Source of the DNA: Lichenicola cladoniae
GTDB lineage: Bacteria > Pseudomonadota > Alphaproteobacteria > Acetobacterales > Acetobacteraceae
Direction of reading: 5' to 3'
Length of the DNA: 64,000 nt
NCBI RefSeq assembly: GCF_013201075.1
Contig: NZ_CP053712.1
Span: 1-64,000, forward strand
In this document: one piece after another, positions 13,897 through 44,319 of the stretch
Layout: each line of letters begins with the position of its first letter
How positions within the stretch are numbered: position 1 is the first letter of the stretch
Translations under genes and position numbers: made by a program
Notes under the pieces: generated by a model
Told to the model about the DNA's origin: nothing
Databases searched by the model: none
Seen by the model: the letters and a program-made list of their open reading frames with translations, nothing else

Positions 13897-14694
13897 GGTT
13901 CTGTTGCAAAGTTTCGTCGTGTCTGAGTATGGGCTGGGACTTTGGTTTTTCTATCCTGCGAGGGAGTAGAACTGCTGCGCTGGACGCAGCTTCGCTGTCG
14001 AACGTAACTGACCCTTGCGGATCATGTGCATGATCTCGAGGCCGGCAATGGTGGTCGCCGCTGACCAGAAATTCTTGAAGCCGAGCATTGGCCGGGTGAT
14101 CCGTTTGATCGCCCGGTGGTCCTGCTCGACGAGGTTGTTGAGATACTTGACTTGGCGCATTTTGATCCCGGCGTCATGCTCGGTGTTGTAGCTGTCAACC
14201 GCCGCGGTGTTGGCGCCGCTCTTGTCGATGGTGATCGTGCGGGGAGCCCTATGTCGGGTGATAGCCTTGCAGAGGAAACGCAGCGCCGCCTTGCGATCGC
14301 GCTTGGCGGTCAACAGGAAGTCCACTGTGGCACCCGCCTTGTCGACTGCACGATACAGATACTTCCACACGCCCTTGATCCGTATGTAGGTCTCATCCAT
14401 CCGCCAACTGCCGCCGATCGGACGTTTGCGGGCCACGAAGGCCTTCTCCAGCAACGGCACATACCTGAGCACCCAGCGATGCAGCGTCGTGTGGTCGACC
14501 TCCACGCCACGCTCCCCCATCATCTCTTCAACCTGGCGGTAGCTCAACGGATACGCCACGTACCAGCGAACACCCCACAAGATGATGTCGCGCTCGAAGT
14601 GGCTGCCTTTGAACGCAATCGACATCGTCTCCAGATCCATAACCGTTGCCGTTAGCCATCACGCACCGGTCGATCGAAACTTTGCAACAGAACC
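13897..14694 (-). mobile_element. IS6-family element, copy A (798 bp)
   Basis: Bounded by GGTTCTGTTGCAAAGTTTCG at the low end and its inverted counterpart ending CAGAACC at 14694. The flanking 8 bp differ (CTTTTTTC and TCAACGAG), so this copy is not in its original pair of flanks. The right flank, reverse-complemented (CTCGTTGA), equals the downstream flank of copy C at 44212-44219. Confidence 0.93.
13951..14640 (-). CDS. IS6-family transposase, copy A
   Basis: A 229-residue DDE transposase without the long N-terminal zinc domain. The catalytic regions are visible: MDETYIRIKGVWKYLYRAVD (first Asp), ITIDKSGANTAA (second Asp) and NLVEQDHRAIKR (Glu). The C-terminus is RPAQQFYSLAG. It differs from the copy B protein by only isolated residues and shares AGLEIMHM with copy C, where copy B has AGIEIMHM. 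IS6 elements move by cointegrate formation and drive deletions and inversions. Confidence 0.93.
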   Translation of the reverse strand: MDLETMSIAFKGSHFERDIILWGVRWYVAYPLSYRQVEEMMGERGVEVDHTTLHRWVLRYVPLLEKAFVARKRPIGGSWRMDETYIRIKGVWKYLYRAVDKAGATVDFLLTAKRDRKAALRFLCKAITRHRAPRTITIDKSGANTAAVDSYNTEHDAGIKMRQVKYLNNLVEQDHRAIKRITRPMLGFKNFWSAATTIAGLEIMHMIRKGQLRSTAKLRPAQQFYSLAG

Positions 14695-14895
14695 TCAACG
14701 AGCGCAGCAGCGGCGTGCTGAACCGGACCTGCCTGCCCAGCGACATCATCGCCTTCGTGGTGTTCTGCCGGTTGCGCTACCGGCTGACGCTGCGTGGGAT
14801 CGAGGTCAGCTACGAGGCCGTTCGTGACTGGGAGGCCAAGCTGCTGCCGGTCATGGGCGACGAGCTGCGCAAACGCCGCCGCGGCACCGGACGTC
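14695..14895 (+). pseudogene. zinc-ribbon IS6-type transposase, 3' half separated by inversion
   Basis: Starts at NERSSGVLNRTCLPSDIIAF directly at the IS6 border and runs through RLRYRLTLRGIEVSYEAVRDW and DELRKRRRGTG before similarity is lost. Its missing N-terminal 36 codons are found on the minus strand at 44212-44319, next to IS6 copy C, and join in frame at the shared 8-bp target site. The next 270 bp (14896-15162) hold nothing else I can identify. Confidence 0.8.
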
Positions 14896-15162
14896 AGTGG
14901 GTCGTCGATCGTCTCGGGCTGACGGAGTGGGACGACAAATGCTATCGCTCATGTCGGCGTATCGCTCCCTCGGTAGGTTTAGGCAGGCTTTTACCCGCCT
15001 CGATACGCCGCCTTGCTCAGTCCGCCATCACCTAGTTTCGCCCATAGCTCCAGCCTAGAAACCCTGGTGCCGATCAGCGATGATCCCTACCATCAGGCTA
15101 CCCGCCCTGGCAGTCTGACGAGCAGCCCAGCCCGCTCAACTGAAGCCTCTAAGGAGTATTTT

Positions 15163-15540
15163 ATGAACGGCGTCGATACGGATACGGGTAAGACCGCAAG
15201 GCCACACGCGCACTTCGATGCTCCGCATGAGGTGGTCGTCGATCCTGAGCTTTCGAAGGAGCAGAAGATAGAAGCTCTTGATAGTTTGGAGCAGGATGCC
15301 CGCCAACTCGCTATTGCTTCGTCAGAAGGTATGTCAGGTGGTGAGGCGACCGGACTACAGGAAGTGCGCCATGCAAGAGATGTATTGGAGATGCCGCCAC
15401 TCTCTATAGCCTATGAAGTGGTATTGCAGGACTTGCATCTTAGACTGACGGACATTGGGCAGGACGAAATGAAGACAGTGCTCCGACAAACCATCGCTGC
15501 CCTAAAGGCCATAAGCACGACCGGCCAATCGAGCACCTGA
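15163..15540 (+). CDS. conserved hypothetical protein
   Basis: A 125-residue soluble protein; the ATG at 15163 follows an AAGGAG site by 7 bp, so the longer upstream frame is rejected. The motif VVVDPELSKEQKIEALDSLEQDARQLAIAS...EGMSGGE resembles a family of short proteins common in rhizobia and related alphaproteobacteria with no known activity. It sits between transposase relics and has no clear operon partner. The 250 bp after it (15541-15792) hold no gene I can support. Confidence 0.6.
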   Translation: MNGVDTDTGKTARPHAHFDAPHEVVVDPELSKEQKIEALDSLEQDARQLAIASSEGMSGGEATGLQEVRHARDVLEMPPLSIAYEVVLQDLHLRLTDIGQDEMKTVLRQTIAALKAISTTGQSST

Positions 15541-15792
15541 TCGATGTTGAGTGAGATCGTGCCGCGGCAAGCTTGGGGAGTGCAAGCAAGCATCCTACCT
15601 CTACGCTCTCGCATCTGTAGCTGCCCGGCGCCGCATCCCCGTGACGCCTGATCAAACTCGATCCAGGTGGCTGGCGGGAGATCTCAGGAGGCAGCCTGCA
15701 GCCTATTGCTCCGCGCCTTCGATAAGCTCGTGACCATTGCCGGATCGGCCACCAGCCCGATCGCCGTCCGTGCTCGCCACTTGGCGATAAAG

Positions 15793-16590
15793 GGTTCTGT
15801 CGCAATTTTGCGTCTTGGCCGCCTCGTGTACATGGGAGGGCGCGGTTTGGGACGAGACGATGGCGATTGACTTCAAGGGTAGTCACTTCGAGCGGGATAT
15901 CGTCCTATGGGGTGTGCGGTGGTATGTGGCGTATCCGATCAGCTACCGCCAGCTCGAGGAGATGATGGGTGAGCGGGGCGTTAAGGTCGATCATTCCACG
16001 CTGAACCGCTGAATCGTGCGCTACGTGCCGTTGCTGGAGAAGGTGTTTGTGTCGCGCAAGCGTCCGGTTGGCGGCAGCTGGAGGCTCGACGAAACCTACG
16101 TGCGGGTCAAGGGCGCGTGGAAGTATCTCTATCGGGCGGTCGACAAAGCCGGTGCCACCGTGGACTTCCTGCTGACGGCCAAGCGGGATCGTAAGGCGGC
16201 GCTGCGCTTCCTGCGTAAGGCGGCCGGGCATCACGGCATTCCTGAGAAGATCACCATCGACAAGAGCGGCGCCAACACAGCTGCGATCGCGAGCTACAAT
16301 GTCGAGCATGACGCGGAGATCGAGACCCGACAGGTCAAGTATCTCAACAACATCGTCGAACAGGATCACCGGGCAGTCAAACGATTGACCCGACCGATGC
16401 TGGGGTTCAAGTCGTTCTGGTCCGCGGCGGTAACTGTCGCCGGCATCGAGATCATGCACATGATCCGCAAAGGATCAGTTGCGCTCAACAGGAAAGTTGC
16501 GTCCAGCACAGCAGTTTTACTCCCTGGCCAGCTAGGCCAAACCACTCTCTCAAGGAAAACTCAACCACTCCGGGAATTTGCGACAGAATC
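15793..16590 (+). mobile_element. IS6-family element, copy D (798 bp, inactive)
   Basis: Starts GGTTCTGTCGCAATTTTGCG and ends TTTGCGACAGAATC, giving the same 798-bp length as copies A-C but with a distinct terminal sequence (TGTCGCA instead of TGTTGCA). The flanking octamers (CGATAAAG, TCAACGCT) do not match, so there is no target duplication. Confidence 0.85.
15860..16520 (+). pseudogene. IS6-family transposase with a stop and a frameshift
   Basis: The N-terminal part (MAIDFKGSHFERDIVLWGVR) ends at TGA 16010-16012 after TLNR; the sister copy at 40050 has TGG (Trp) there. The frame then stays open through the DDE motifs (LDETYVRVKG, ITIDKSGANTAA, NIVEQDHRAVKR). A one-base insertion near 16470 (RKGS instead of RKGQL) throws the C-terminus out of frame. 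Both lesions disable the enzyme. Confidence 0.88.
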
Positions 16591-16740
16591 TCAACGCTAC
16601 CCTGTGGCATTCCAGACTCACCCAGCTAAGATGAGAGCGTTGAACAGCCCTGGAAGAGCAGCAGAGGCAGCAGCTACAGCGCTTGCTAGCTTGGTCTTCT
16701 ACATGTCATGCGTCGAGAGCAATCTTAGAGTGCTCTCGGC

Positions 16741-17994
16741 ATGACACCACTTGGCTTGTTCGGCGCCCTGCTGACGCTCTCCTCCGTCTTCGGAGTGATT
16801 AACAACCGCACGCTACGGCTGCCACCGTCCATCGGGGTACTGGCTATCGCACTGCTGGTCTCGCTAGTGATCCTGGCGGTCAACCCGTTCATCCCTGGAA
16901 TAGACCTACAGGCGGTGTTGCAAGAGTTGCTTGGCAAGATCAACTTCTCGCAGGCTCTGCTCAACGGTGCCCTCTCCTTCCTCCTCTTTGCTGGGGCGCT
17001 TCAGGTCAACCTGGGGCAACTTTGGGCTCGCAAGATCACTGTCCTTGCACTGGCACTGGTTGGCACAGTATTGGCCGTGGCAGTGTTCGGTGGCGCCATG
17101 TGGTTTGTATTCCCCCTAAGCGGGGTGTCGGTGCCCTTGATCTGGTGCGTTGTGCTCGGCTCCATCCTTGCGCCAACTGATCCCGTTTCGGTGGTGGCGA
17201 TGTTACGTAGGATTGGGCTGCCAGAAGCGATTCAGGCGGTATTCGCGGGCGAGAGCCTCTTCAACGACGGGATTGCCGTCGTGATCTCAAGCGTGGCACT
17301 AGAGATCGCTACTCATGGATCGGCTATCAGCGGAATAGGAATTATCACCACCTTTCTCCAGCAGGCATTGGGTGGAGGTGCTGTGGGGCTCGGCTGTGGT
17401 TGGCTAGCGGTACAGCTCATGCGATCGGTGGATGACAGCCATCTAGAACTCATCATCTCCTTGGCTTTGGCAGCAGGAACTTTCAGCTTAACCAACAGCT
17501 TCGGCATGTCCGGACCCATAGCGGTAGTCGTAGCAGGGCTGAGCCTCGGTAGCAGGAGGAGCCGTAAGGCGCTCACCCACGACGGTCGGCGGGAACTGAT
17601 GATCTTCTGGTCGCTCATGGATGAGGTATTGAATACGCTGCTTTTCCTACTGATTGGGTTCGAGGTAGTGGCGATCGCCTTCCAGCAGTTCCACTTGATC
17701 GCCGTTCTGATCGCCATTCCATTATCTGTCGCGGCGCGAGGAATTAGCGTGTTCCTGGCGACGATGCTGGCTCGCTTGCGGGGACACAGCCGAGGCGACG
17801 TTCTGGCCGTGCTGACTTGGGGAGGCCTGCGCGGTGGCATCTCAGTATCGCTAGCGCTTAGCCTACCGGACAACGAGATCCGTCCCGCCCTCTTGGCTGT
17901 CTGTTATAGCGTGGTTGTCTACACCATCATCGTCCAAGGCCTGACAATGGAGCGTGTCGCCCGTTACTTCTATCCTGATGCTACTGCAAGATAG
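16741..17994 (+). CDS. CPA1-type Na+(K+)/H+ antiporter
   Basis: A 417-residue inner-membrane protein with about 12 hydrophobic segments. CPA1 (NhaP-like) signatures are clear: ILAPTDPVSVVAMLRRIGLP, FAGESLFNDGIAVVI with the ion-binding ND pair, and TWGGLRGGISVSLALSLP near the end. It exchanges cytoplasmic monovalent cations for protons, serving pH and salt homeostasis. It has no large C-terminal cytosolic regulatory domain. It starts 150 bp after an IS6 relic and is monocistronic; the first codons (MTPLGLFGALL) go straight into the first membrane segment. Which ion it carries is not readable from sequence. Confidence 0.88.
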   Translation: MTPLGLFGALLTLSSVFGVINNRTLRLPPSIGVLAIALLVSLVILAVNPFIPGIDLQAVLQELLGKINFSQALLNGALSFLLFAGALQVNLGQLWARKITVLALALVGTVLAVAVFGGAMWFVFPLSGVSVPLIWCVVLGSILAPTDPVSVVAMLRRIGLPEAIQAVFAGESLFNDGIAVVISSVALEIATHGSAISGIGIITTFLQQALGGGAVGLGCGWLAVQLMRSVDDSHLELIISLALAAGTFSLTNSFGMSGPIAVVVAGLSLGSRRSRKALTHDGRRELMIFWSLMDEVLNTLLFLLIGFEVVAIAFQQFHLIAVLIAIPLSVAARGISVFLATMLARLRGHSRGDVLAVLTWGGLRGGISVSLALSLPDNEIRPALLAVCYSVVVYTIIVQGLTMERVARYFYPDATAR

Positions 17995-18046
17995 TAAAAC
18001 GTGGTCACCATCCGGAACACGCTTCAGATGGTGTGGAGGTAGTAGG

Positions 18047-18093
18047 TATCTCTCCGCCGAGAGCCGCCTGGGCGGTAACCTATCGCCACTTTA
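18047..18093 (+). repeat. left-end-like remnant of an IS66 element
   Basis: This stretch (GTATCTCTCCGCCGAGAGCC..., then CGCCTGGGCGG) resembles the left end of the intact IS66 element at 19688 (GTATCCCTCCGCTGAAGGCC...) over about 47 bp. It stops at the IS630 border. It is best read as the end of a second, lost IS66 copy. Confidence 0.55.
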
Positions 18094-19194
18094 CTCAGCA
18101 GTCGGTGATATAAGCTACACTTGCCACTCTGAAGAATGAGCGCACCAGCTTGGGCATACGTTTGAGTTTGGCAAGCTGACCCTCGATCTTCTCGCCCAAG
18201 CTATCGCCCTTCCGCAATGGTGTTCTGGCTACACCGGTACGCTTGATGTGGCTCCACACGAGCTCGTCCGGGTTAAGATCGGGAGCGTAGCCGGGAAGAA
18301 AGTGAAGCGTCAGCATCCCGTTGGTTGATTGGATGTAGGCGTTCACGAGCTTTGTCTTGTGGGCTGGAAGACCATCGACTACGAGATGAACGGGCTTGCG
18401 GCGGTTACGCATCATCATCTTCAGTAGGACGATAAACAGCTCCGCGTTGAGGCCGCCCTGGTAGGTGCAATACCAGAACGCACCGCGAGCGTTGACGGCT
18501 GATGCCGCGCTGATCGACTGCCGTTGACCCGGGCGCTCGACAACCGGTGTTTGTCCCTTCTTGCCCCAGGTCTTCCCATGCACCGTATCGGCACGGAACC
18601 CCGATTCGTCCCAGAAGTAGATCTCGCCGCCCTCGCTTTTTGCTCTACTGGCAATAGAAGGAAACGTATCACGCTGCCACGTCTGGATGGCTTCAGGGTC
18701 GCGTTGATAAGCCCTCTGCAACGGCTTCTGCGGCGTGAGCTCCAGCCTCGCCAGTAGGGTGCCGACTGCCGTCAAGCCAATTTTGATGCCGAACTTCTCC
18801 TCGATCAAAGCGGAGATCATGGAGCGCGTCCAAAGACCGAAATCCAGACCATACTGACGAGGATCTTTCCCATTGACCCAAAGGAACACCTGCTGCTCCT
18901 GACTTGGCGTCAGACTGCGCGGCGGGCCCAGAGACTTTGTCGAATGCAGCGCCTCATCTCCCAGTTCAGGCGTTGACGCTGCTCTGAGCCATTTGTAGAT
19001 CGTGGTCCGGCAGAAGCCATACGACGCTACGACAGAGGACGGCCGTTCACCGTCGCGAACGCGTTCAACTGCCATCAGCCGTATGGCTTCCAGCGTCCCA
19101 TGATCAAAAGTTCGGCCATCTCTCTTCATGCCTGACCGTATCAAATGGCAGATACTAGTACAAGGGATTGTAGCCTATGTCACCGACTTGTGAG
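18094..19194 (-). mobile_element. IS630-family element with TA target duplication
   Basis: Terminal repeats read CTCAGCAGTCGGTGATATAA on the left and, reverse-complemented, CTCACAAGTCGGTGACATAG on the right, each flanked by TA (18092-18093 and 19195-19196), as expected for IS630/Tc1-type insertion. On the right it interrupts an IS3-family element. Confidence 0.85.
18095..19144 (-). CDS. IS630-family transposase
   Basis: A complete 349-residue frame. The N-terminal helix-turn-helix part contains RPSSVVASYGFCRTTIYKWL. The DDE catalytic part shows IYFWDESGFRADTVHG (Asp-Glu region), HLVVDGLPAHKTKLV and LHFLPGYAPDLNPDELVWSHIKR (third acidic residue). The stop lies inside the terminal repeat. With paired ends and TA flanks the element looks potentially active. 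Confidence 0.9.
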   Translation of the reverse strand: MIRSGMKRDGRTFDHGTLEAIRLMAVERVRDGERPSSVVASYGFCRTTIYKWLRAASTPELGDEALHSTKSLGPPRSLTPSQEQQVFLWVNGKDPRQYGLDFGLWTRSMISALIEEKFGIKIGLTAVGTLLARLELTPQKPLQRAYQRDPEAIQTWQRDTFPSIASRAKSEGGEIYFWDESGFRADTVHGKTWGKKGQTPVVERPGQRQSISAASAVNARGAFWYCTYQGGLNAELFIVLLKMMMRNRRKPVHLVVDGLPAHKTKLVNAYIQSTNGMLTLHFLPGYAPDLNPDELVWSHIKRTGVARTPLRKGDSLGEKIEGQLAKLKRMPKLVRSFFRVASVAYITDC

Positions 19195-19650
19195 TAAGCA
19201 TTTTGCGCTGCGTCGAGCGGTGCTGATCCAGCACCCGGCAGGCAAAGCGCTCCGAGACGTCCAGCGTCGCCGTCACGTGCTGCACGCACGCCCGACGACG
19301 AGCAGCGCCTAGTAGTTTCCCAACGCGGCTTGCTTCAACACCAGCTTCTCGAGCGTCAGGTCCGCTACCGCCCTACGCAGGCGGCCATTCTCCTGCTCCA
19401 GCAGCTTCAGCCGCTTCACCTGGTCCAACTTCAGGCCGCCATACTCGGCGCGCCACCGATAGTAGGTCGCCTCCGTCACCCCAATCGCCCGAACCGCTTC
19501 AGTCACCGGCTTGCCCTGTGCCGTCAGCACCTCGACCTGCCGCAGCTTGCCGACGATCTCCTCCGGCTTGTGATGCTTGCGCCCCATCTGATCCCCTCCA
19601 TATGCCCCGGAACTCTCATATCCGGCGGCCCACTTCTACGGGGGCAGGTC
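19195..19650 (-). mobile_element. IS3-family element, truncated by IS630
   Basis: Nearly identical to the first third of the complete IS3 element at 55429-56687: the left terminal repeat (GACCTGCCCCCGTAGAAGTG on the minus strand), orfA, and the beginning of orfB up to the TA where IS630 entered. The rest of orfB is absent. Confidence 0.85.
19309..19587 (-). CDS. IS3-family transposase OrfA
   Basis: A 92-residue helix-turn-helix protein (MGRKHHKPEEIVGKLRQVEV, TEATYYRWRAEYGG) with a leucine-rich coiled segment (LLEQENGRLRRAVADLTLEK). It differs from the intact copy at 55492 by three extra residues (KRLKLLEQ against KQLEQ). OrfA binds the IS ends but cannot transpose without OrfB, which is truncated here. 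Confidence 0.85.
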   Translation of the reverse strand: MGRKHHKPEEIVGKLRQVEVLTAQGKPVTEAVRAIGVTEATYYRWRAEYGGLKLDQVKRLKLLEQENGRLRRAVADLTLEKLVLKQAALGNY

Positions 19651-19769
19651 ACGCGCTCACCTTTACCAGATGCAGGTTCATCATTTCGTATCCCTCCGCT
19701 GAAGGCCGCCTGGGCGTGAATCTGTCGCCACCTTAAGTTGCTACTTTAGGTGGCGCTTGAGGTGTTTCG

Positions 19770-20180
19770 ATGGATGGCGTGATGGAGATCATCACCGGGC
19801 GTGAGGGTCGGCGGCGTTGGAGCACGGCAGATAAGCTGCGCATTGTTGCTGAGACGCAGGAGCCTGGTGTTGCGATCCGCGCTGTCGCGGCTCGCCATGA
19901 TATTTGCGAAAGCCTTCTGTTCACCTGGCGACGACAGGTGCGTGAGGGTGTGCTGAGGGCGGCGTCGGATATGGCGATGTTCATGCCGGTGCAGATGATC
20001 GGGGTGGCTCCCACGGAATCCATGCCATCCAATTCGGCACCGCACTCGGTAGCGCCGATGCGATCCGTGCCGACGTCCGGGCTCATCGAAATCGAGCTGG
20101 GCAATGGCCGACACGTCCGCGTTGGCAGCGACGTCAATCTCGGCGCGTTGCGGCGCGTGCTGGCGGCGCTGCGCGAGTGA
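19770..20180 (+). CDS. tnpA: IS66 accessory protein TnpA
   Basis: A 136-residue protein with an N-terminal helix-turn-helix (RRRWSTADKLRIVAETQEPG, ICESLLFTWRRQ) of the IS66 OrfA type. It ends 4 bp inside tnpB (overlapping GTGA), which couples translation. It is needed with TnpB and TnpC for IS66 movement. Confidence 0.88.
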   Translation: MDGVMEIITGREGRRRWSTADKLRIVAETQEPGVAIRAVAARHDICESLLFTWRRQVREGVLRAASDMAMFMPVQMIGVAPTESMPSNSAPHSVAPMRSVPTSGLIEIELGNGRHVRVGSDVNLGALRRVLAALRE

Positions 20181-20524
20181 TCCCGGTTTCGGCGAGCGTA
20201 CGGATCTGGATCGCGACGGGCCATACCGACATGCGCCGGGGCATGCGCGGTCTTGCTCTGCAGGTGCAGGAAGGGCTTGGCCGAGATCCATTTGCTGGGG
20301 ATGTTTTTGTTTTTAGGGGCCGCAGTGGTTCGCTGATCAAGGCGATCTGGCATGATGGCATCGGTTTGTCGCTCTATGCCAAGCGCCTGGATCGCGGGCG
20401 CTTCATTTGGCCGCAGACGGTGGATGGCGCAGTGCCGCTGACAGCGGCGCAGATGGGTTATTTGCTGGAGGCGATCGACTGGCGCAATCCGCGGCAGACA
20501 TGGCGTCCACAATCTGCAGGATAA
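20177..20524 (+). CDS. tnpB: IS66 accessory protein TnpB
   Basis: A 115-residue protein starting at GTG. It has the family wording WIATGHTDMRRGMRGLALQV, GDVFVFRGRSGSLIKAIWHDG and a C-terminal MGYLLEAIDWRNP. The exact activity of TnpB is unknown, but it is required for IS66 transposition. It overlaps the end of tnpA. Confidence 0.9.
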   Translation: MIPVSASVRIWIATGHTDMRRGMRGLALQVQEGLGRDPFAGDVFVFRGRSGSLIKAIWHDGIGLSLYAKRLDRGRFIWPQTVDGAVPLTAAQMGYLLEAIDWRNPRQTWRPQSAG

Positions 20525-20584
20525 TGGATCGGTAGCTGCCGAAAATAGTACCACGGCGGCTTGGTTCATGATTCAATCTTCGGC

Positions 20585-22228: not shown

Positions 22229-22264
22229 TCAGACATGATGCCGCGGTGCTCAGCGGATGGTTAC

Positions 22265-23013: not shown

Positions 23014-23125
23014 GCCCTGCTCCTGCCTGCGAATCGTGATACCGCGCGATCGAGTCAGAAATCAGGGCCGATGGGAATCCCTCCACCCAGAGAGTCAGTG
23101 TCATCCGGAATTGGTATAAGCCGCC

Positions 23126-29807: not shown

Positions 29808-29819
29808 CTCGTCTCGTTG

Positions 29820-32743: not shown

Positions 32744-32759
32744 GCTCCGGCTGCCGGGC

Positions 32760-35330: not shown

Positions 35331-35331
35331 C

Positions 35332-35436
35332 TGGTTCAACACCCGTTGCCTCCTCGAGCCCATCGGCAACATCCCGCCCGCCGAGGCTGAAGCCGCCTAC
35401 TACGCAGCCCTTGAGCCCATGCCAATCGCCGCGTAG
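35332..35436 (+). pseudogene. IS3-family OrfB, C-terminal tail
   Basis: Reads WFNTRCLLEPIGNIPPAEAE to the stop at 35434-35436, the recognisable end of an IS3-group OrfB. Everything upstream has been removed at the IS6 copy E border. Confidence 0.75.
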
Positions 35437-35582
35437 AGACTCAACCCAATCGGTCTCCGGGAAACCCGGGGTGGTTCAGTATCTACATCGTCCTCAGCAT
35501 CTTTCTGCGGCAGGACCACTCCTCGGAGTCAAAGCCGGTGGGCGCGAGCGATAGGCAGACGAGAGGGGCGAACGAGTAGGGG

Positions 35583-35600
35583 GTCCGGTAGCAACCGGAC
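35583..35600. repeat. perfect hairpin upstream of kup
   Basis: GTCCGG and CCGGAC are paired around TAGCAA, followed by TAAAAG. It could be a weak terminator of the preceding IS remnant or part of the kup leader. Nothing more can be said. Confidence 0.35.
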
Positions 35601-35664
35601 TAAAAGTTTGATTCAGCGCTGGAGGTGGCGGGAGTTGGCGGCCGAAGACGGAAAGGCGGGACGC

Positions 35665-36312
35665 GTGTCGGACAGCAAGAAGGCCAACGGACTGATCGTC
35701 CCCGGGCTGGGCGCATTGGGTATCGTCTATGGCGATCTCGGCACGAGCCCGCTTTATACCTTCCAGACCGTGGTCGGCGACGCTGGCGGCAAGATCAGCC
35801 CGGAGATCGCGTTCGGCAGCCTCTCGCTAATCATCTGGGCGCTGATCACCACCATCTCCATTAAGTACTGCCTGATCGTCATGCGCGCCGACAACCAGGG
35901 TGAAGGCGGCATCCTGGCGCTGATGTCGCTGCTCAAACCCAACGACAAGAGTGGGCTGCTGCATCGCGGCAGTCTGCTGATCGCCGCCGGCCTGTTTGGC
36001 GCCGCCTTGATCTACGGCGACGGCATTATCACCCCGGCAATCTCCGTGCTGAGCGCGCTCGAAGGTCTCAACGTCGCTACCGACACCTTCAAGCCATACG
36101 TAGTGCCGCTGGCCGTTGCGATCCTGGTCGGTCTGTTCGTCGCCCAATCGCTCGGCACCGCGAAACTCAGCAAATTGTTCGGCCCGATCATGCTCGTCTG
36201 GTTCACGGTGATCGCCGTGATCGGCGTCATCGCCATTGCCCGCTTCCCCGGTGTACTGGCTGCCATCGACCCGCTCTACGGCGCGCATTTCCTGATCCAT
36301 CACGGCTGGGGC
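35665..36312 (+). pseudogene. kup: Kup potassium uptake protein, truncated
   Basis: The N-terminal third of a Kup/Trk-type K+/H+ symporter: GLGALGIVYGDLGTSPLYTF, MRADNQGEGGILALMSLL and AALIYGDGIITPAISVLSAL, all family signatures. The GTG at 35665 follows GGAAAGG; a TTG at 35608 in the same frame is possible. The gene runs straight into IS6 copy B at 36313, which adds eleven foreign residues and a stop. About two thirds of the protein are missing, so it cannot transport. The intact kdp system further right may compensate. Confidence 0.9.
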
Positions 36313-37110
36313 GGTTCTGTTGCAAAGTTTCGATCGACCGGTGCGTGATGGCTAACGGCAACGGTTATGGATCTGGAGACGATGTCGATTGCGTTCAAAG
36401 GCAGCCACTTCGAGCGCGACATCATCTTGTGGGGTGTTCGCTGGTACGTGGCGTATCCGTTGAGCTACCGCCAGGTTGAAGAGATGATGGGGGAGCGTGG
36501 CGTGGAGGTCGACCACACGACGCTGCATCGCTGGGTGCTCAGGTATGTGCCGTTGCTGGAGAAGGCCTTCGTGGCCCGCAAACGTCCGATCGGCGGCAGT
36601 TGGCGGATGGATGAGACCTACATACGGATCAAGGGCGTGTGGAAGTATCTGTATCGTGCAGTCGACAAGGCGGGTGCCACAGTGGACTTCCTGTTGACCG
36701 CCAAGCGCGATCGCAAGGCGGCGCTGCGTTTCCTGTGCAAGGCTATCACCCGACATAGGGCTCCCCGCACGATCACCATCGACAAGAGCGGCGCCAACAC
36801 CGCGGCGGTTGACAGCTACAACACCGAGCATGACGCCGGGATCAAAATGCGCCAAGTCAAGTATCTCAACAACCTCGTCGAGCAGGACCACCGGGCGATC
36901 AAACGGATCACCCGGCCAATGCTCGGCTTCAAGAATTTCTGGTCAGCGGCGACCACCATTGCCGGCATCGAGATCATGCACATGATCCGCAAGGGTCAGT
37001 TACGTTCGACAGCAAAGCTGCGTCCAGCGCAGCAGTTCTACTCCCTCGCAGGGTAGAAAAACCAAAGTCCCAGCACATACTCAGACACGACGAAACTTTG
37101 CAACAGAACC
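36313..37110 (+). mobile_element. IS6-family element, copy B (798 bp)
   Basis: GGTTCTGTTGCAAAGTTTCG at the left and TTTGCAACAGAACC at 37110. It truncates kup on the left and meets an IS3 relic on the right. Flanks GCTGGGGC and AACACCGG do not match each other or those of copies A and C, indicating loss of DNA by IS-mediated deletion or recombination with an outside copy. Confidence 0.93.
36367..37056 (+). CDS. IS6-family transposase, copy B
   Basis: An intact 229-residue DDE transposase nearly identical to copies A and C; the visible difference is AGIEIMHM in place of AGLEIMHM. Catalytic regions are as in copy A. It is likely functional. Confidence 0.93.
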   Translation: MDLETMSIAFKGSHFERDIILWGVRWYVAYPLSYRQVEEMMGERGVEVDHTTLHRWVLRYVPLLEKAFVARKRPIGGSWRMDETYIRIKGVWKYLYRAVDKAGATVDFLLTAKRDRKAALRFLCKAITRHRAPRTITIDKSGANTAAVDSYNTEHDAGIKMRQVKYLNNLVEQDHRAIKRITRPMLGFKNFWSAATTIAGIEIMHMIRKGQLRSTAKLRPAQQFYSLAG

Positions 37111-37189
37111 AACACCGGCGGCGGTCCGACAAACCCCGCTTCACCCGCGGCACTCGCCGCGTAGGCTCCTTCATGGTGTCTCATCAACC

Positions 37190-37504
37190 GGGGCCGGTAC
37201 ATCGCTTTGCGCTCGGTAACAGACCGGCCTTTCCGAGCGCACCGGCCAAAAAATCATTCGCCAGCGTCAGCCCGCCAATCTTGGCGTGCAGCACCGTCAT
37301 GTCGACCGGCTCCGCGGGTAACGGGTCGGTCCCGAACACGTCCGCCGCGGCCTCCAGCAGCCGTGACCGCTATTGGTTGATGAGGTTCGGATGCACGTCA
37401 TACTGCTGCGCCAGCTCGCCCAGCGTCTTCTCGCCCTTGATAGCGGCCAAGGCCACCTTGGCCTTGAACGCCGGGCTGTGGTTCCGGCGCGGTCGCTTGC
37501 TCAT
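37190..37504 (-). pseudogene. IS3-family OrfA with internal amber stop
   Basis: Starts MSKRPRRNHSPAFKAKVALA, continues GEKTLGELAQQYDVHPNLINQ, then TAG (37370-37372) where relatives have Trp (the related OrfA at 41088 reads QITAWKAQL), and resumes RSRLLEAAADVFG, VLHAKIGGLTLANDFLAGAL. No OrfB follows on the IS6 side. Sequence at 37111-37189 and 37505-37646 holds nothing identifiable. Confidence 0.8.
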
Positions 37505-37646
37505 CTGCCTCGTGCTCGCGGCCAGCATGGCCGCCGTCAAATCGGCAATCCACTTATCCCGCTGTGCAAATTACCCGAGTAACCTCTGACTACCACGGCG
37601 AATCGAAGTGTACCATCGAGCCGCGAAGTCACAAGTGCTGAAGCAA

Positions 37647-39599
37647 TTATGTCTTCTCAAAACCTAAGTGCCGATGGCGATCGTATTCTTTCGCTAAACG
37701 AACTTCTGGCATACCGCTGCCGGCATTTAGCAGCATCCGATGCCCATAGTGCCGCCATCTTGCAAGAAAACCAGGAACTTCGCCCCCCGGCATTGGCCGA
37801 CTGAACAGGTAGCCCTGACCGCAATCGCAGTTTCCCGCAACGAGGACCTTTAATTGCTCAAGTGTCTCAACACCTTCGGCGACGACCCGCATACCGAGGT
37901 TCGCACCAAGGTCGATAATAGCTTGGGTGATCACGCGATTACTTTGCTGTTCTTCAAGGCCGGAAATAAATGATCTGTCGATCTTGATCCGTCCGACGTC
38001 AAACGTCTTTAGGTGGGTAAGCGACGCGTAGCCGGTACCAAAATCGTCTAGTGCCGAAATAACTCCGAATTGCCGCAGTTGCCTCAGCACATCGGCTACG
38101 GCGTCGGCACGGTCACCAAGGAACGCGCTTTCTAAAATCTCTAACTTGAGCCTGTCCGGACTTAAGTCATACTTCTTGAGCAAGGCGACGACTTGGCGGG
38201 ATAGTTCGTCGCCGCTCTGAAGCTGACTGCGAGAAATGTTCACGTTGACGCACAATACCGGAATGGACTGGTTGGTCCATTGGCGCAATTGTCCAAGGCT
38301 GCGATCGAGGACGAAGGCGCCGATCTTGGCCGAAAGGGCATGGTCCTCTAGCGCTGCAGAGAACGCTGCGGGCGTCAGTAGGCCGCGGGTCGGATGTTGC
38401 CATCGCACCAGGGCTTCAAAACCCCGGACCTCAGACGTGCGAAGATCAATGATCGGTTGATAGTATACGTCGAATTCATCGCGACGGAGCCCAAGACGGA
38501 CTTCCTCGAGCAAATTGACGCGCCGCTCCGTTTCCACCCCCAAGCTTCGTTTAAATACGCAGGCCTGACCTCGTCCTCGAGCCTTCGCCTCGTAGAGGGC
38601 AATATCGGCACGGCGGAACATCGTATCTGGGCTTATGCACTCTCCGCGAGAAACGACTGCTCCAACGCTAACGCTGATTGTCAGGCTGATAACTTGATCC
38701 GCTGCCAAAACCCGGATCTCGTCATCAAAAATTCGGAGTATCCCGTCGAGGCGACCCTTTGCGTCCGCCGCGCCATCGAGAACAAGGACAAACTCATCGC
38801 CGCCGAGACGGCCGACCAAGTCGTCTGGGCGGACGAAGACCTGGAGCCGACGGGCTACTTCTACCAACAGCGTATCGCCAGCGGTATGGCCATACAGGTC
38901 GTTGATGGGCTTGAAGTAGTCGATGTCTAGCATGACCACGATCATACTATTAGAACGTTTGCCGGAATCTACCCGATTCTGTAACGTTTCGGTCAGGAGA
39001 CGGCGATTGGCGAGGCCAGTCAACGGGTCGTGCGTTGCAAGATGCAGAAGGTGGGCCTCGGCCTGCTTTTCCGCGGTAACGTCAATCAACACGCCGACGA
39101 GATACCGCGTTCCGCCGCCACTTGGCTCAATCTCGCCAATCCATCGCTGCCATCGATTCGTTCCACTGGGCAGTCTGAAAGTCAAGGTAAGATCAAATGG
39201 TTGGCCGGACGAGATCGCTTCGACAATTGCCTTTTTGAGTTGGGCCTGAAGAAGTCCGGAATAGCACGCGATTACCCGCTCAAAGGTTATCGGCTCTACC
39301 AATGCCACGTTGAAGATACGGTAAACCCCATCCGACCAAGTTAGCGCCATCGTGTCGATATCCAGCGACCAACGTCCGATCAAGCCAAGCCGTTCCGTTT
39401 GATCGGTCATCATTTTGGAACGCGCTAACTCCCGTTGGAGATCAGGCAAGGGGCATAGGTCGCCCGAAACGGACCGTGCAATGGGGTTCGGCCTACCCAA
39501 GAGCCCAGCCCTTTCTCCGCCGGCGCAAGCTAAAAAACACGATGCCGACGACGGGATGGAGCACGGAACATGCCTATCTGGGATTACCATTCTGCCCAA
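37647..39599 (-). CDS. PAS-GGDEF-EAL cyclic-di-GMP enzyme
   Basis: Up to 650 residues; the frame allows starts at 39599 or further in, for example the ATG at 39413. A PAS/PAC sensor (about 70-180, LGLIGRWSLDIDTMALTWSD, LVGVLIDVTAEKQAEAHLL) is followed by a GGDEF domain with an intact active site (RLGGDEFVLVL) and HDPLTGLANRR, then an EAL domain with EALVRWQHP, NVNISRSQL, LDDFGTGYASL and VAEGVET. Both diguanylate cyclase and phosphodiesterase residues are present, so it may be bifunctional. No membrane segment is evident. It stands alone, and the 380 bp on its upstream side (39600-39977) are empty. Confidence 0.92.
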   Translation of the reverse strand: MGRMVIPDRHVPCSIPSSASCFLACAGGERAGLLGRPNPIARSVSGDLCPLPDLQRELARSKMMTDQTERLGLIGRWSLDIDTMALTWSDGVYRIFNVALVEPITFERVIACYSGLLQAQLKKAIVEAISSGQPFDLTLTFRLPSGTNRWQRWIGEIEPSGGGTRYLVGVLIDVTAEKQAEAHLLHLATHDPLTGLANRRLLTETLQNRVDSGKRSNSMIVVMLDIDYFKPINDLYGHTAGDTLLVEVARRLQVFVRPDDLVGRLGGDEFVLVLDGAADAKGRLDGILRIFDDEIRVLAADQVISLTISVSVGAVVSRGECISPDTMFRRADIALYEAKARGRGQACVFKRSLGVETERRVNLLEEVRLGLRRDEFDVYYQPIIDLRTSEVRGFEALVRWQHPTRGLLTPAAFSAALEDHALSAKIGAFVLDRSLGQLRQWTNQSIPVLCVNVNISRSQLQSGDELSRQVVALLKKYDLSPDRLKLEILESAFLGDRADAVADVLRQLRQFGVISALDDFGTGYASLTHLKTFDVGRIKIDRSFISGLEEQQSNRVITQAIIDLGANLGMRVVAEGVETLEQLKVLVAGNCDCGQGYLFSRPMPGGEVPGFLARWRHYGHRMLLNAGSGMPEVRLAKEYDRHRHLGFEKT

Positions 39600-39977
39600 C
39601 TTGAATCATTTGTTAACAGCATACGTTTATCTATTGTTAGACGATATAGGGGATACGCAGCTTTGCCGCTTGGTGGCAGTGAGTTTAAGTAAGCAGTGTA
39701 GTTGTTGAGCTAGCTCGGAACCGCAGTCAACTTTTGGACAGCCCTTGTATTTGGTTTTTGAGACGTATCTCACCTGAACTAAAATGCCTTGGTTTTCGGG
39801 AACCGATTTGGTTGAGTCTCTACGCGCGACTGGCATGGGCTAAACGGCGAGGTAGTAGGCGACGGAGTGTTGAACCAGTCGACCCAATGCAGGACGTTGG
39901 ATTCGACCGTGTCGATGCTGGGCCAGGCTTGGCAGTTGGCGGTGGATCACCTCGATCTCGAACCGGCCATTAATAAG

Positions 39978-40727
39978 ATTCTGTCGCACGTTTGTGTGTC
40001 TTGGCCGCCTGCTAGATGATGGGAGCGGGCGCGGTTTTGGGACGAGACGATGGCGATTGACTTCAAGGGCAGTCACTTCGAGCGGGATATCGTCCTATGG
40101 GGTGTGCGGTGGTATGTGGCGTATCCGATCAGCTACCGCCAGCTCGAGGAGATGATGGGTGAGCGGGGCGTTAAGGTCGATCATTCCACGCTGAACCGCT
40201 GGATCGTGCGCTACGTGCCGTTGCTGGAGAAGGTGTTCGTGTCGCGCAAGCGTCCGGTGGGCGGCAGCTAGAGGCTCGACGAAACCTACGTGCGGGTCAA
40301 GGGCGCGTGGAAGTATCTCTATCGGGCGGTCGACAAAGCCGGTGCCACCGTGGACTTCCTACTGACGGCCAAGCGGGATCGTAAGGCGGCGCTGCGCTTC
40401 CTGCGTAAGGCAGCCGGGCATCACGGCATTCCTGAGAAGACCACCATCGACAAGAGCGGCGCCAACACAGCTGCGATCGCGAGCTACAATGTCGAGCATG
40501 ATGCGGAGATCGAGACCCGACAGATCAAGTATCTCAACAACATCGTCGAACAGAATCACCGGGCGGTCAAACGATTGACCCGACCGATGCTGGGGTTCAA
40601 GTCGTTCTGGTCCGCGGCGGTCACTGTCGCCGGCATCGAGATCATGCACATGATCCGCAAAGGACAGTTGCTCTCAACAGGAAAGTTGCGTCCAGCACAG
40701 CAGTTTTACTCCCTGGCCGGCTATAGC
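39978..40727 (+). mobile_element. IS6-family element, copy F, right end lost
   Basis: The left end reads GATTCTGTCGCACGTTTG. The right end is missing: after TTTACTCCCTGGCCGGC the sequence turns into an IS630 end (TATAGCATTTTCCGATC). Nearly identical to copy D over the coding part. Confidence 0.82.
40050..40727 (+). pseudogene. IS6-family transposase with amber stop
   Basis: MAIDFKGSHFERDIVLWGVR is followed by an open frame to GGS, then TAG at 40269-40271; copy D has TGG (GGSWRLDE) at the same place. The rest (VRVKGAWKYLYRAVDKAG, TIDKSGANTAA, NIVEQNHRAVKR) is open. A further change of D to N in the EQDHR motif is also seen. Copy D carries a different nonsense mutation, at a Trp codon that is intact here. 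Confidence 0.88.
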
Positions 40728-41009
40728 ATTTTCCGATCAGATAGCGTCATATCCGGCGGCAGCAAAATAGTTGAAGCACTCAACTGGATCGAAGCGTTCG
40801 AGTGCTCCTGCAATCGTCTGCCAGAGGTCATCGACCGTGCGTGATGCAGCCGCTCGAAGCAGAGCCTTGAGCTTGGAGAATGCCATCTCGATCGAGTTGA
40901 AGTTGGGCGAGTAGGGCGGCAGAAACCGGAGCTCTGCGCCTGCGGCCTCGATTGCCTCACGAATGCCGGTCACCTTGTGCGACGGCAGGTTGTCCATGAT
41001 GACAGAGGT
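40728..41009 (-). pseudogene. IS630-family transposase, C-terminal fragment
   Basis: Reads [40 protein letters not shown] and ends at 40737 (AAAGYDAI), the C-terminal third of an IS630 DDE transposase including the last acidic residue. The 5' part has been lost at the IS3 border. Confidence 0.82.
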
Positions 41010-41087
41010 GGCTGGCCAAATTCGGACAGTCCTATAAGTGGAAAGTCTGCCTGGAAGCGGCGATCATGCCGCGTATCAGGAGAGACC

Positions 41088-41399
41088 ATGACGAAACGGA
41101 CACGCCGGGCTCATGCTCCGGCTTTCAAAGCGAAAGTGGCGCTGGCTGCCGTCAAGGGCGAGAAGACGCTGGCGGAGTTGGCACAGCAGTATGACGTGCA
41201 TCCGAACCAGATTACGGCCTGGAAGGCACAACTGATCGAGGGTGTTGCCAGTGTTTTTGTCGCCGGGTCCAGCGGCGCGGAAGTAGCACCTGCCGTAGAT
41301 TTGAAGGTGCTGCATGCCAAGATTGGCGAGCTGGCGCTGGAGAATGATTTTTTGTCCGGTGCGCTCAGCAAAGCCGGCCTGCTGAGCGCAAAACGATGA
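41088..41399 (+). CDS. IS3-family transposase OrfA
   Basis: A 103-residue protein: MTKRTRRAHAPAFKAKVALA, KTLAELAQQYDVHPNQITAW and a C-terminal coiled segment VLHAKIGELALENDFLSGAL. The start follows AGGAGAG. It overlaps orfB by 4 bp (ATGA), which allows coupled or frameshifted expression. It is intact, but its partner is broken. Confidence 0.88.
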   Translation: MTKRTRRAHAPAFKAKVALAAVKGEKTLAELAQQYDVHPNQITAWKAQLIEGVASVFVAGSSGAEVAPAVDLKVLHAKIGELALENDFLSGALSKAGLLSAKR

Positions 41400-42070
41400 T
41401 CGACCGCGGCCATGATCTGCCGCTGCTGCGGCAGGCTGAGCTGCTCGGGTTCAGCCGTAGCAGCTTCTACTATGAGCCTCGGCCGGTGGCGCAGAAGGAG
41501 CTCGCGATCATGCTGCGGATCGACGCGCTGCATCTCGACTATCCGTTCGCGGGCAGCCGGATGCTGCGGGATCTGCTGCGCGGTGAGGGCGTCGTGATCG
41601 GGCGCGAACTGGTAGCCACGATGATGCGGCGCATGGGCATCGAGGCGCTGTATCGCCGCCCGAACACCTCCAAGCCGGCACCGGGGCATAAGATCTATCC
41701 ATATCTCCTGCGCGGCGTGGCGGTCGGGCGGCCGAACCAGGCGTGGGCGATGGACATCACATACATTCCAATGGCGCGCGGATTTGTCTACCTGGCGGCT
41801 GTTGTGGACTGGTTCACCCGACGGGTCCTGTCATGGCAATTATCGATAACGTTGGAGGTGGATTTTTGCATAGAGGCAGTGGAGGAAGCGCTCGCCAGGC
41901 ACGGCAAGCCCGAGATTTTCAACACTGATCAGGGCAGTCAATTTACCAGCGCGGCCTTCACCGGCCTGTTGACCGACAACACCATTTCCATCAGCATGGA
42001 TGGCCGCGGTGCGTGGCGCGACAACGTGTTTGTCGAACGGCTTTGGCGATCGGTCAAATACGAGGAAGTC
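41396..42070 (+). pseudogene. IS3-family OrfB integrase, interrupted
   Basis: MIDRGHDLPLLRQAELLGFS, then the rve domain: [11 protein letters not shown] (first Asp), IFNTDQGSQFTS (second Asp) and GRGAWRDNVFVERLWRSVKY with the Glu. Immediately after EEV the sequence no longer matches IS3 and turns into intron RNA sequence. The last 50 or so residues are absent. Confidence 0.85.
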
Positions 42071-43413
42071 GTATGCTGTGAACGTGTCTACCCACCTTGG
42101 GACGGCGCGGAACTTTACCGGAGATGGGGGCCGGCCCCCCGAAGTCGGTCTGCAGGGGCAGGCTTCAAACCGCCACAAGCTGCGAGGGTAAAGAGCCCTG
42201 GTGGTGAGCGTTGCTGGAAAAGGCGGAAAGCTATTCCGTCAGGTGGGTCTTGAGGAGACGAACGCGAGTGAACCGCTGATGACGTGTCGTAACGTATTAA
42301 ACCGACGTCGAAACCGGGACCTGGACTTCTGTCCCGCGAGCAAGGGTTGGGCGATGCCTGCTGACGGCCCAACCGGCGTCCGGCATGAAGGCGGCGTGAC
42401 CTCAAGACAGGCTTCGGTAAGGAACACAGGAACCTGTCGTCCCGATGCCAAGGGAGAAATCCAAACGGTCAGTCACCGTAAGGATCTGAGTACCGATGCG
42501 GGGCACAGGGGCGGAGATGTCCGTAGTAGGGATGATGGTTCCGTAATGGGACCGGACCGAAGGGGCATCGTCATTCGGCTATATCCCAGAGGCAACCCGA
42601 AAGGGGATGACCTCCATGGGTAGAGCAAAGTCGTATTGTATTGCGAAGCGTGAAGTGTGGGAAGCGTATAAGCGAGTAAAAGCCAATCGAGGGGCGGCTG
42701 GGGTGGATGGTCAGTCTATCGAAGACTTCGACAGAGATTTAAGTAAGAACCTCTATCGGATCTGGAATAGAATGTCTTCCGGAAGCTACTTTCCGCCACC
42801 CGTGCGTCGCGTTGACATACCGAAAGGCGATACTGGAGGAACTCGGCCGCTCGGAATTCCGACGGTCTCCGACAGGATTGCTCAGATGGTGGTCAGGCGA
42901 CACCTGGAGCCGATCCTAGAGCCGGTGTTTCACCGAGATTCTTATGGATATCGCCCCGGGAAATCGGCGCATAATGCGCTGGTTATGGCTCGGCAGCGTT
43001 GCTGGGCTCATGATTGGGTGCTCGACCTCGACATCAAGAGTTTCTTCGACGAGATCGATTGGGACCTCCTGATGCGAGCCGTGCGTCGACACACTGACTG
43101 TCCATGGGTGCTGCTCTACCTTGAACGGTGGCTGAGGGCGCCCGTGAGCATGCCGGATGGGACCTTGGTTGGGCGAGAGAGGGGGACCCCGCAGGGGGCT
43201 GTCGTCAGTCCTGTGCTGGCAAATCTCTTTCTTCACTATGCGTTCGATCTCTGGATGCAAAGAGAGTATCCAAGCATCCCGTTTGAACGCTACGCTGACG
43301 ACGCGATCTGCCATTGCGCGAACGAAGAGCAGGCGCTTGAGTTACATCAAGCGCTGGGGCAGAGGTTCGAGGCGTGTCGGCTTCGGCTACACCCGGAAAA
43401 GACCAAAACCGTC
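42071..43413 (+). mobile_element. group II intron, 3'-truncated by IS6 copy C
   Basis: About 530 nt of non-coding sequence with many short paired segments (for example GGGGGCCGGCCCCC at 42126-42139) precede a reverse-transcriptase frame, the arrangement of domains I-IV of a bacterial group II intron. The exact 5' splice site is uncertain by about 10 nt (GTATGC at 42071 or GTGAACGTG at 42078). Domains V and VI and the 3' exon are gone, because IS6 copy C starts at 43414. It cannot splice. Confidence 0.8.
42607..43413 (+). pseudogene. ltrA: group II intron reverse transcriptase, truncated
   Basis: A typical start (REVWEAYKRVKANRGAAGVD, then FDRDLSKNLYRIWNRM), RPLGIPTVSDRIAQMVV, SYGYRPGKSAHNAL, LDLDIKSFFDEIDW, GTPQGAVVSPVLANLFLHY and the catalytic FERYADD box. 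The frame is lost at LHPEKTKTV, where IS6 copy C begins; the IS adds eleven residues and a stop. The maturase (X) and endonuclease regions are missing. Confidence 0.9.
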
Positions 43414-44211
43414 GGTTCTGTTGCAAAGTTTCGATCGACCGGTGCGTGATGGCTAACGGCAACGGTTATGGATCTGGAGACGATGTCGATTGCGTTCAAA
43501 GGCAGCCACTTCGAGCGCGACATCATCTTGTGGGGTGTTCGCTGGTACGTGGCGTATCCGTTGAGCTACCGCCAGGTTGAAGAGATGATGGGGGAGCGTG
43601 GCGTGGAGGTCGACCACACGACGCTGCATCGCTGGGTGCTCAGGTATGTGCCGTTGCTGGAGAAGGCCTTCGTGGCCCGCAAACGTCCGATCGGCGGCAG
43701 CTGGCGGATGGATGAGACCTACATACGGATCAAGGGCGTGTGGAAGTATCTGTATCGTGCAGTCGACAAGGCGGGTGCCACAGTGGACTTCCTGTTGACC
43801 GCCAAGCGCGATCGCAAGGCGGCGCTGCGTTTCCTCTGCAAGGCTATCACCCGACATAGGGCTCCCCGCACGATCACCATCGACAAGAGCGGCGCCAACA
43901 CCGCGGCGGTTGACAGCTACAACACCGAGCATGACGCCGGGATCAAAATGCGCCAAGTCAAGTATCTCAACAACCTCGTCGAGCAGGACCACCGGGCGAT
44001 CAAACGGATCACCCGGCCAATGCTCGGCTTCAAGAATTTCTGGTCAGCGGCGACCACCATTGCCGGCCTCGAGATCATGCACATGATCCGCAAGGGTCAG
44101 TTACGTTCGACAGCGAAGCTGCGTCCAGCGCAGCAGTTCTACTCCCTCGCAGGATAGAAAAACCAAAGTCCCAGCCCATACTCAGACACGACGAAACTTT
44201 GCAACAGAACC
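43414..44211 (+). mobile_element. IS6-family element, copy C (798 bp)
   Basis: GGTTCTGTTGCAAAGTTTCG to TTTGCAACAGAACC. The left flank AAACCGTC (in the intron) and right flank CTCGTTGA differ. The right flank matches the flank of copy A once that copy is turned into the same orientation, and both copies carry the same Leu variant in the transposase. Confidence 0.93.
43468..44157 (+). CDS. IS6-family transposase, copy C
   Basis: An intact 229-residue DDE transposase, essentially the same protein as copy A (AGLEIMHM variant), with catalytic regions MDETYIRIKG, TIDKSGANTAA and NLVEQDHRAIKR. Confidence 0.93.
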   Translation: MDLETMSIAFKGSHFERDIILWGVRWYVAYPLSYRQVEEMMGERGVEVDHTTLHRWVLRYVPLLEKAFVARKRPIGGSWRMDETYIRIKGVWKYLYRAVDKAGATVDFLLTAKRDRKAALRFLCKAITRHRAPRTITIDKSGANTAAVDSYNTEHDAGIKMRQVKYLNNLVEQDHRAIKRITRPMLGFKNFWSAATTIAGLEIMHMIRKGQLRSTAKLRPAQQFYSLAG

Positions 44212-44319
44212 CTCGTTGAACTGCCGCTTGCAAGCCCGGCAGCGGAAGCGACGGTAGCCGCGTGTCGTCACCTCCGGCCGCTCCGTCACGGACGCAGACC
44301 CACAGCACATGCAGTTCAT
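44212..44319 (-). pseudogene. zinc-ribbon IS6-type transposase, N-terminal part
   Basis: From the ATG at 44319 it reads MNCMCCGSASVTERPEVTTR, then RFRCRACKRQFNE, a four-Cys zinc ribbon, and stops at the IS6 border. The next codons (RSSGVLNRTCLPSD...) are at 14701 onward next to copy A. Joining the two across the shared octamer gives one continuous frame. Confidence 0.85.

Follow-up and report, generated by a model that had tools for sequence, protein, structure and literature searches.

A 28.7-kb plasmid segment apparently inverted through IS6-family transposition

Positions 14695–43413 of the window (the whole stretch of 64,000 nucleotides that was analysed) lie between two IS6-family copies in opposite orientation, and a split gene together with a duplicated target gives good support to the view that IS6 activity has reversed this segment with respect to an earlier state. 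The inversion was probably made by one intramolecular replicative transposition in trans, the mismatch between the outer flanks coming from an older cis deletion. The features on which this rests are as follows.

14695–43413, 28,719 bp: segment whose inferred ancestral order was putatively the reverse, bracketed by inverted copies A and C, with split gene and target duplication
13897–14694, minus strand: IS6-family copy A, 798 bp, perfect terminal repeats, matching NF033587 and PF13610
13951–14640: transposase of copy A, 229 aa, NF033587 IS6 transposase at 254.4 bits
43414–44211, plus strand: IS6-family copy C, 1 of 798 bases unlike copy A, NF033587 at 254.4 bits
43468–44157: transposase of copy C, 229 aa
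36313–37110, plus strand: IS6 copy B, a close relative with no part in the inversion event, cutting a kup-like gene
131956–132753 of the same contig: copy D
14695–14702, plus strand: target duplication copy, TCAACGAG, inside the inverted segment, exact reverse complement of 44212–44219
44212–44219, minus strand: other target duplication copy, CTCGTTGA on the plus strand, outside the inverted segment
14695–14896, plus strand: downstream piece of a zinc-ribbon IS6-family transposase gene, 73–96% identity to host-genome paralogues
44212–44411, minus strand: upstream piece of the zinc-ribbon IS, 75–86% identity to paralogues

The contig measures 149,789 bp and carries four IS copies, three of them near-identical and the other at 97%. 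With the NF033587 cut-off at 125 bits, copies A, B and C score 254.4, 255.7 and 254.4 as IS6/IS240-type DDE transposases; each is 798 bp long with ends GGTTCTGTTGCAAAGTTT/AAACTTTGCAACAGAACC, and the outer 18 bp are perfectly inverted in all three, in line with the length and terminal repeats of IS6 elements. An earlier sequence-only reading had given the coordinates, opposite orientations, lengths and near identity of A and C correctly. Pairwise base differences are 1 for A and C, 5 for A and B and 6 for B and C; the proteins of A and C are identical, with the Leu that this reading had already seen in both, at residue 201, where B has Ile. Inversion in trans calls for two inverted IS copies around the segment that start out identical, and here the two differ at 1/798; at three sites A and C are alike and differ from B, D and a copy on contig C2, while one site is at odds with this. 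There, A carries the base of B and C carries that of D and the contig C2 copy, so that a back-mutation or gene conversion is required; gene conversion, if it occurred, would be evidence of recombination between copies. Judged by their sequences, A and C are sister copies.

The clearest trace of an earlier order is the zinc-ribbon gene. The sequence-only reading had it broken at the two IS borders, and indeed the minus-strand RACKRQFNE at 44212 is continued by NERSSGVLNRT, read on the plus strand from 14697. Both pieces match the same places in the host genome, at least 12 of them (a lower bound, since 40 candidates out of 45 were scored for one piece and 40 out of 81 for the other), hence the adjoining pieces derive from one zinc-ribbon transposase gene. 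Their matches overlap by exactly 8 bp in 9 of the 12 places and by 6–7 bp in the other 3, where local alignments start or end 1–2 bases short; an 8-bp overlap is what IS6 target duplication predicts, which supports the trans event. In the upstream piece, the terminal repeat ends at 44411 and the start codon is at 44319. The downstream piece lacks 27 bp internally when set against its paralogues, its similarity to them stops at 14896 and the catalytic part is missing; from this sequence it would be an older remnant of a gene already decayed before the IS6 event. An intact relative (L043:1938–2762, 275 aa) has an IS6-type DDE domain (NF033587 at 189.7 bits, PF13610) and, seen by eye, N-terminal Cys pairs.

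The multi-copy nature of the zinc-ribbon IS, with both pieces present in at least 12 places, also allows a reading with no inversion, in which two independent IS6 insertions hit the same position in different zinc-ribbon IS copies. The closest paralogue does differ between the pieces (C1:784043 at 84% for one; C3:306579 and others at 83% for the other), and the 8 bases sit in a conserved stretch of the gene: six of the nine paralogues aligned, out of the twelve places, have the identical 8 bp, so equal flanks would follow from an equal position. For the same reason, the 8/8 flank match described below and the split gene are not independent lines of evidence. Nevertheless, two insertions would have to strike the same point of a gene several hundred bases long, in orientations giving complementary pieces, with the other piece lost both times; moreover, the pieces abut in all 12 places found, so none of these is interrupted at that point. 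We regard such a coincidence as very improbable.

The right flanks of A (TCAACGAG) and C (CTCGTTGA) are reverse complements at 8/8 positions, and the left flanks (CTTTTTTC and AAACCGTC) agree at 2/8; the sequence-only reading had noted the match of the first pair and the mismatch of the second. Among the 28 flank pairs of copies A–D, all of which were compared, this is the only 8/8 match (runner-up 4/8), and none of A, B, C or D has a matching flank pair of its own; inspection by eye likewise gave no 8-bp flank pair for the contig C2 copy. When flanks were drawn at random contig positions, sets of four (A/C-type) contained a match in 84 of 400,000 draws, and sets of ten contained any match in 72 of 20,000. 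A and C thus have in common one inverted pair of the 8-bp length typical of IS6 target duplications, and each copy joins one target flank (8/8) to one original flank (2/8), the arrangement expected of inversion in trans. Two ordinary insertions followed by recombination predict two matching flank pairs and one is seen; this favours a one-step trans event, and the mechanism given by the sequence-only reading should change accordingly. That reading is partly supported: its inversion of 14695–43413 is borne out by the split gene and the duplication; its route, recombination between the two resident copies followed by a deletion, fits poorly with a single flank pair and is less economical than a single step.

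That route can be put in a stronger form, in which C inserted into the zinc-ribbon gene and left a direct 8-bp duplication (e.g. by cointegrate formation and resolution) and homologous recombination with a resident inverted A, whose flanks were unmatched, flipped the segment; the two orientations might then still interchange. Inverted copies of 798 bp are a good substrate for recombination, the unflipped target site would read CTCGTTGA-IS-CTCGTTGA, and the base in which A differs from C, being common to A and B, could reflect exchange among copies. Against the one-step model, the same present sequence is expected from an insertion with a direct duplication plus A/C recombination, if the other IS had lost its duplication. 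Homologous inversion should leave both flank pairs reverse-complementary, and the second pair is unmatched, although this could be explained if one duplication had been lost earlier. The price is at least two events plus that older loss at A, where one event suffices, and A and C are sisters, not an old copy and an unrelated incoming one. On balance, we consider this course unlikely.

The proposed single transposition would have started from one IS6-family element on the plasmid, with flanks CTTTTTTC and GACGGTTT, the latter within a group II intron. Its transposase would have joined both IS ends, in the trans direction, to a target 28.7 kb off on the same molecule, namely the already decayed zinc-ribbon gene. 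Replication through the IS would then give two inverted copies, A and C, and turn the intervening DNA round, while the 8-bp target TCAACGAG would be duplicated in inverted orientation, one copy adjoining each IS. The mismatched outer flanks would go back to an older cis deletion next to the place where the IS first sat, and where two genes are interrupted.

13264–13896, minus strand: ISAz013-type transposase interrupted by copy A, limited to profile positions 98–308 (PF07592)
42607–43413, plus strand: reverse transcriptase of a group II intron, interrupted by copy C, TIGR04416 at 342.8 bits, profile 2–250 of 353

The reverse transcriptase lacks its maturase end, and a domain search of the whole genome gave no match to the GIIM domain (PF08388). 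Similarly, the two PF07592 matches in the whole genome both lie in the window, and no ISAz013 part outside profile positions 98–308 was found. As both genes cut there seem, from these domain searches, to be without their other halves in the genome, it is likely that DNA was deleted earlier where the IS originally sat. When 41900–43413 was compared with the rest of the genome, its first 171 bases matched contig C8 at 99%, at an IS3-type ORF, and bases 9–149 matched contig C4 weakly (71%). The sequence-only reading had called for a further deletion to account for the mismatched flanks. We rejected this as a requirement of the inversion, since the one-step model leaves these flanks unmatched anyway; an older loss is nonetheless probable on the grounds just given.

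Searches of plasmids, genus, family and named genomes found no genome or plasmid in the uninverted order. Megablast against plasmids, from which records of the own or a very near genome were possibly left out, took positions 1–25000 and 39001–64000 as queries and matched 137 and 317 records respectively. None reached 80% query coverage; for either query the 25 best records matched IS66, IS1380, ltrA, IS6 or kdp genes over at most 13% of its length. The IS6 element had no match in any of the four other genomes of the genus. Within the family it was matched in 58 of 397 genomes, own included, with 2 candidates scored in each; outside the own genome the best match reached 81% over bases 55–735. 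Among the best 80 of 566 loci in named genomes, the top-ranked transposase relative was 74% identical and the highest identity among the matches listed was 78%, over residues 3–186. These family and named-genome relatives are too distant for their order to be compared, and the uninterrupted target is known from paralogues only, with no orthologous relative among the searched genomes and plasmids. As the searches gave no relative in that order, both the direction and the mechanism are inferences: a single replicative step, a change towards the present order and an older cis deletion.

The present orientation could in principle be an assembly choice, as inverted repeats of 798 bp might let an assembler or a mixed population show either one, and short reads cannot orient inverted repeats exceeding read size. 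Yet a contig of 149,789 bp with four similar IS copies suggests long reads, and the inverted duplication and split gene would persist in either case, leaving only the present orientation in doubt; an artefact of this kind has little to recommend it.

Beside the inverted segment lie further features.

44412–55427, plus strand: kdp segment, 11,016 bp, 97.5% identity to C1:1741373–1752371, outside the inversion
35608–36312: kup-like K+ transporter gene cut by copy B
57405–61055: MobF/TrwC relaxase

The kdp segment begins exactly at the end of the zinc-ribbon IS, and C1 is a chromosome-sized contig. The kup-like piece has two distant matches on C1 (67% and 66%) and a 71-bp match on contig C5 upstream of the gene. 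No RPA replication protein was found in the genome. Tentatively, and with rather less confidence than we attach to the inversion itself, two layers of IS6-family activity may be envisaged, in which a zinc-ribbon IS6 lineage of about 974 bp moved the chromosomal kdp operon to a conjugative-type plasmid and a second IS6 later inverted the neighbouring segment; kdp would have been cut exactly at the zinc-ribbon IS end, and the later inversion would have passed through that IS remnant.

The inversion is a new instance of a process already well known from relatives such as IS26 and alters no general idea; its value lies in how cleanly the scar of IS6 replicative inversion can be read here, in a bacterium that is apparently non-clinical, and in a flank pattern that distinguishes one-step transposition from recombination of resident copies. 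As set out in the legend to Fig. 6 of PMC7986276, intramolecular trans transposition of IS6 elements leaves one inverted target duplication and two original IS flanks that do not match. As in the IS6/IS26-family inversion described there, the segment lies between IS copies that face opposite ways, the two copies of the target are inverted with respect to each other, and either IS has original sequence on one side and target sequence on the other; unlike that case, we are dealing with a plasmid-like contig, probably of an acetobacterial host, and not with a clinical plasmid, and the parent state is reconstructed. An IS26 inversion of 63.5 kb has been proposed in the Klebsiella pneumoniae plasmid pMR284.7-NDM (PMC9676029), with the same trans-oriented attack, duplicated IS and target duplication as here, but there the parental plasmid was sequenced, whereas here the parent is deduced. 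Finally, the target gene recalls the IS6-family transposases of clade h, described in PMC7986276 as having an N-terminal zinc finger and 340–350 aa and as occurring mainly in Clostridia. Judged by its intact relative, it resembles them in its IS6-type DDE domain and N-terminal Cys pairs and departs from them in its 275 aa, short of the length given for the clade, and in its non-clostridial host; if the two-layer reading were true, these mainly clostridial zinc-finger transposases would have a non-clostridial counterpart in the zinc-ribbon lineage.

The coordinates that the sequence-only reading gave for three IS6-family copies in the window were correct; each is 798 bp long with perfect ends and encodes a 229 aa transposase that passes the IS6 model. 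The genome search listed 22 IS copies with 40 of 73 candidates scored, so that further distant copies are possible. The following are used here:

13897-14694, minus strand: IS6 copy A
36313-37110, plus strand: IS6 copy B
43414-44211, plus strand: IS6 copy C
131956-132753 of the same contig (C5): fourth IS6 copy D, 97% identity
Contig C2: fifth IS6 copy, 98% identity

C is inverted relative to A and departs from it at a single base out of 798, while B differs from A at 5 and from C at 6. At three sites A and C share a base that sets them apart from B, D and the C2 copy. At the sole A/C difference, A has the base of B and C that of D and the C2 copy, which needs a back-mutation or gene conversion. 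Acidisphaera is among the named genomes with transposase relatives of the IS (among the matches listed). B interrupts a kup-like K+ transporter gene (35608-37110 region) after about 235 codons, and the piece present has only distant matches elsewhere in the genome (67% and 66%).

The right flank of A (14695-14702) is the exact reverse complement of the right flank of C (44212-44219), whereas the left flanks match at 2/8 positions. Among the 28 flank pairs compared for A to D, the next-best match reached at most 4/8; when four flanks of the A/C type were drawn at random from the contig, a full 8-base match arose in 84 of 400,000 draws. Beyond these right flanks lie the two pieces of an IS6-family transposase gene with a zinc ribbon, given here with an intact relative from elsewhere in the genome:

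44212-44411, minus strand: first piece
14695-14896, plus strand: second piece
C3:147437-148264 (1938-2765 of locus L043): intact relative, a 275 aa IS6-family transposase with N-terminal Cys pairs

The proposal that one gene underlies both pieces was borne out, as they stand side by side in at least 12 places of the host genome, and translation of both confirmed that the frame runs on across their joint. At 9 of the twelve places found the pieces overlap by exactly 8 bp; at the other 3 the overlap is 6-7 bp because the local alignment stops 1-2 bases early. The joined flanks aligned without a break at the joint with nine of the twelve places, the 8-bp target being identical in six of these paralogues and one base off in three. 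The first piece has at least 16 host-genome matches (40 of 45 candidates scored), those outside the twelve being itself, C1:1741373 (covering only DNA adjoining the IS), C4:186339 and C1:786956; the second has at least 15 (40 of 81 scored), with itself, C1:153642 and C4:62920 falling outside, the last being an additional fragment at a place already counted. Complete and partial copies of the element, which is about 974 bp long, number at least 12 in the genome (L043 and 11 further places). Of four checked by terminal repeats, two measure 974 bp and a third 976 bp, and no right end was found in the fourth; in the C3:306 copy the frame ends after 21 residues. The window copy is without 27 bp inside and blastn similarity is gone at 14896; it was already a remnant before it was interrupted. 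Zinc-finger IS6 members are reported mainly from Clostridia in a review of the family (PMC7986276).

The genome comprises 6.06 Mb in 8 contigs, and C5 (149,789 bp, with the window as bases 1-64000) is marked as plasmid-like by a relaxase; a genome-wide search for an RPA replication protein gave no match. By megablast against plasmids, the best matches of positions 39001-64000 include Acidiphilium, Roseomonas and Acidisoma plasmids, and Rhizobium leads by record number (123 of 317 matching records). The first three, together with Acidisphaera, suggest a host within or close to the Acetobacteraceae. The neighbours of the first piece are:

44412-55427: kdp segment, 11,016 bp, second copy of C1:1741373-1752371 at 97.5% identity
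55623-56654: integrase-core ORF of an apparently IS3-type region
57405-61055: MobF/TrwC-type relaxase

The left border of the kdp segment is the first base past the zinc-ribbon IS end; the right border is not such an end and adjoins the apparently IS3-type region. The segment holds kdpA, kdpB, kdpC and a kdpD-like gene that scores below its model's cut-off. Between kdpABCD of C5 and that of C1, a 4.8-Mb contig, 129 codons differ synonymously and 24 nonsynonymously with no stops, so both copies look conserved. Across four further genomes of the genus, matches of at least 3 kb are 69-83% identical. Capture of a near relative's chromosomal segment by an IS6-type event is a plausible origin, but the right border does not fit a zinc-ribbon IS end. 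Compared with its chromosomal counterpart, the ORF upstream of kdp (45349-46770, as read from 45349) has a 15-bp indel, and its codon changes are synonymous in 4 cases and nonsynonymous in 25; this frame may be incorrect, being overlapped by a longer ORF (45392-46759); approximately 45520-46770 also matches C1:1406416-1407651 at 94%. An inverted repeat pair, 19195-19650 inside the inverted segment and 55429-55875 outside it, is 96.7% identical and probably represents IS3-type fragments. C5:79221-82870 carries two sets of related repeats at offsets of about 60 bp.

The sequence-only observation is confirmed: inversion of the 28,719 bp between A and C (14695-43413) is well supported, and so is its link to IS6. 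The proposed route, insertion with direct duplication followed by recombination between A and C, fared less well, because two ordinary insertions that recombined would leave both flank pairs matching and only one does. That route yields the identical sequence provided that A had lost its own duplication earlier, at the cost of more steps than a one-step transposition. No orthologous relative with the uninverted order was found among plasmid records, the four other genomes of the genus, family genomes and named genomes. The present orientation could reflect an assembly choice or a mixed population, though this is an unlikely reading. We consider one-step replicative transposition the probable mechanism. 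It would have started from a single older IS flanked by CTTTTTTC on one side and GACGGTTT on the other, which sit in unrelated genes:

13264-13896: ISAz013-type transposase, truncated at the IS
42607-43413: group II intron reverse transcriptase, truncated at the IS

Neither missing remainder turned up when the genome was searched by domain. As two unrelated genes are truncated at the IS and their remainders are absent from these searches, an older cis deletion next to the IS likely removed the rest of both. A deletion, as previously suggested, is therefore likely, though one that predates the inversion instead of belonging to it. According to PMC7986276, a cis deletion by an IS6 element results in a single IS that has an original flank on one side and a target flank on the other.

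In the intramolecular trans product of IS6 transposition, as PMC7986276 describes it, the segment is inverted between the original and the new IS copy, themselves in inverted orientation, while the target is duplicated in inverted orientation and each copy carries one original and one target flank. The window displays the same arrangement, and we regard the inversion as a new instance of this known process.
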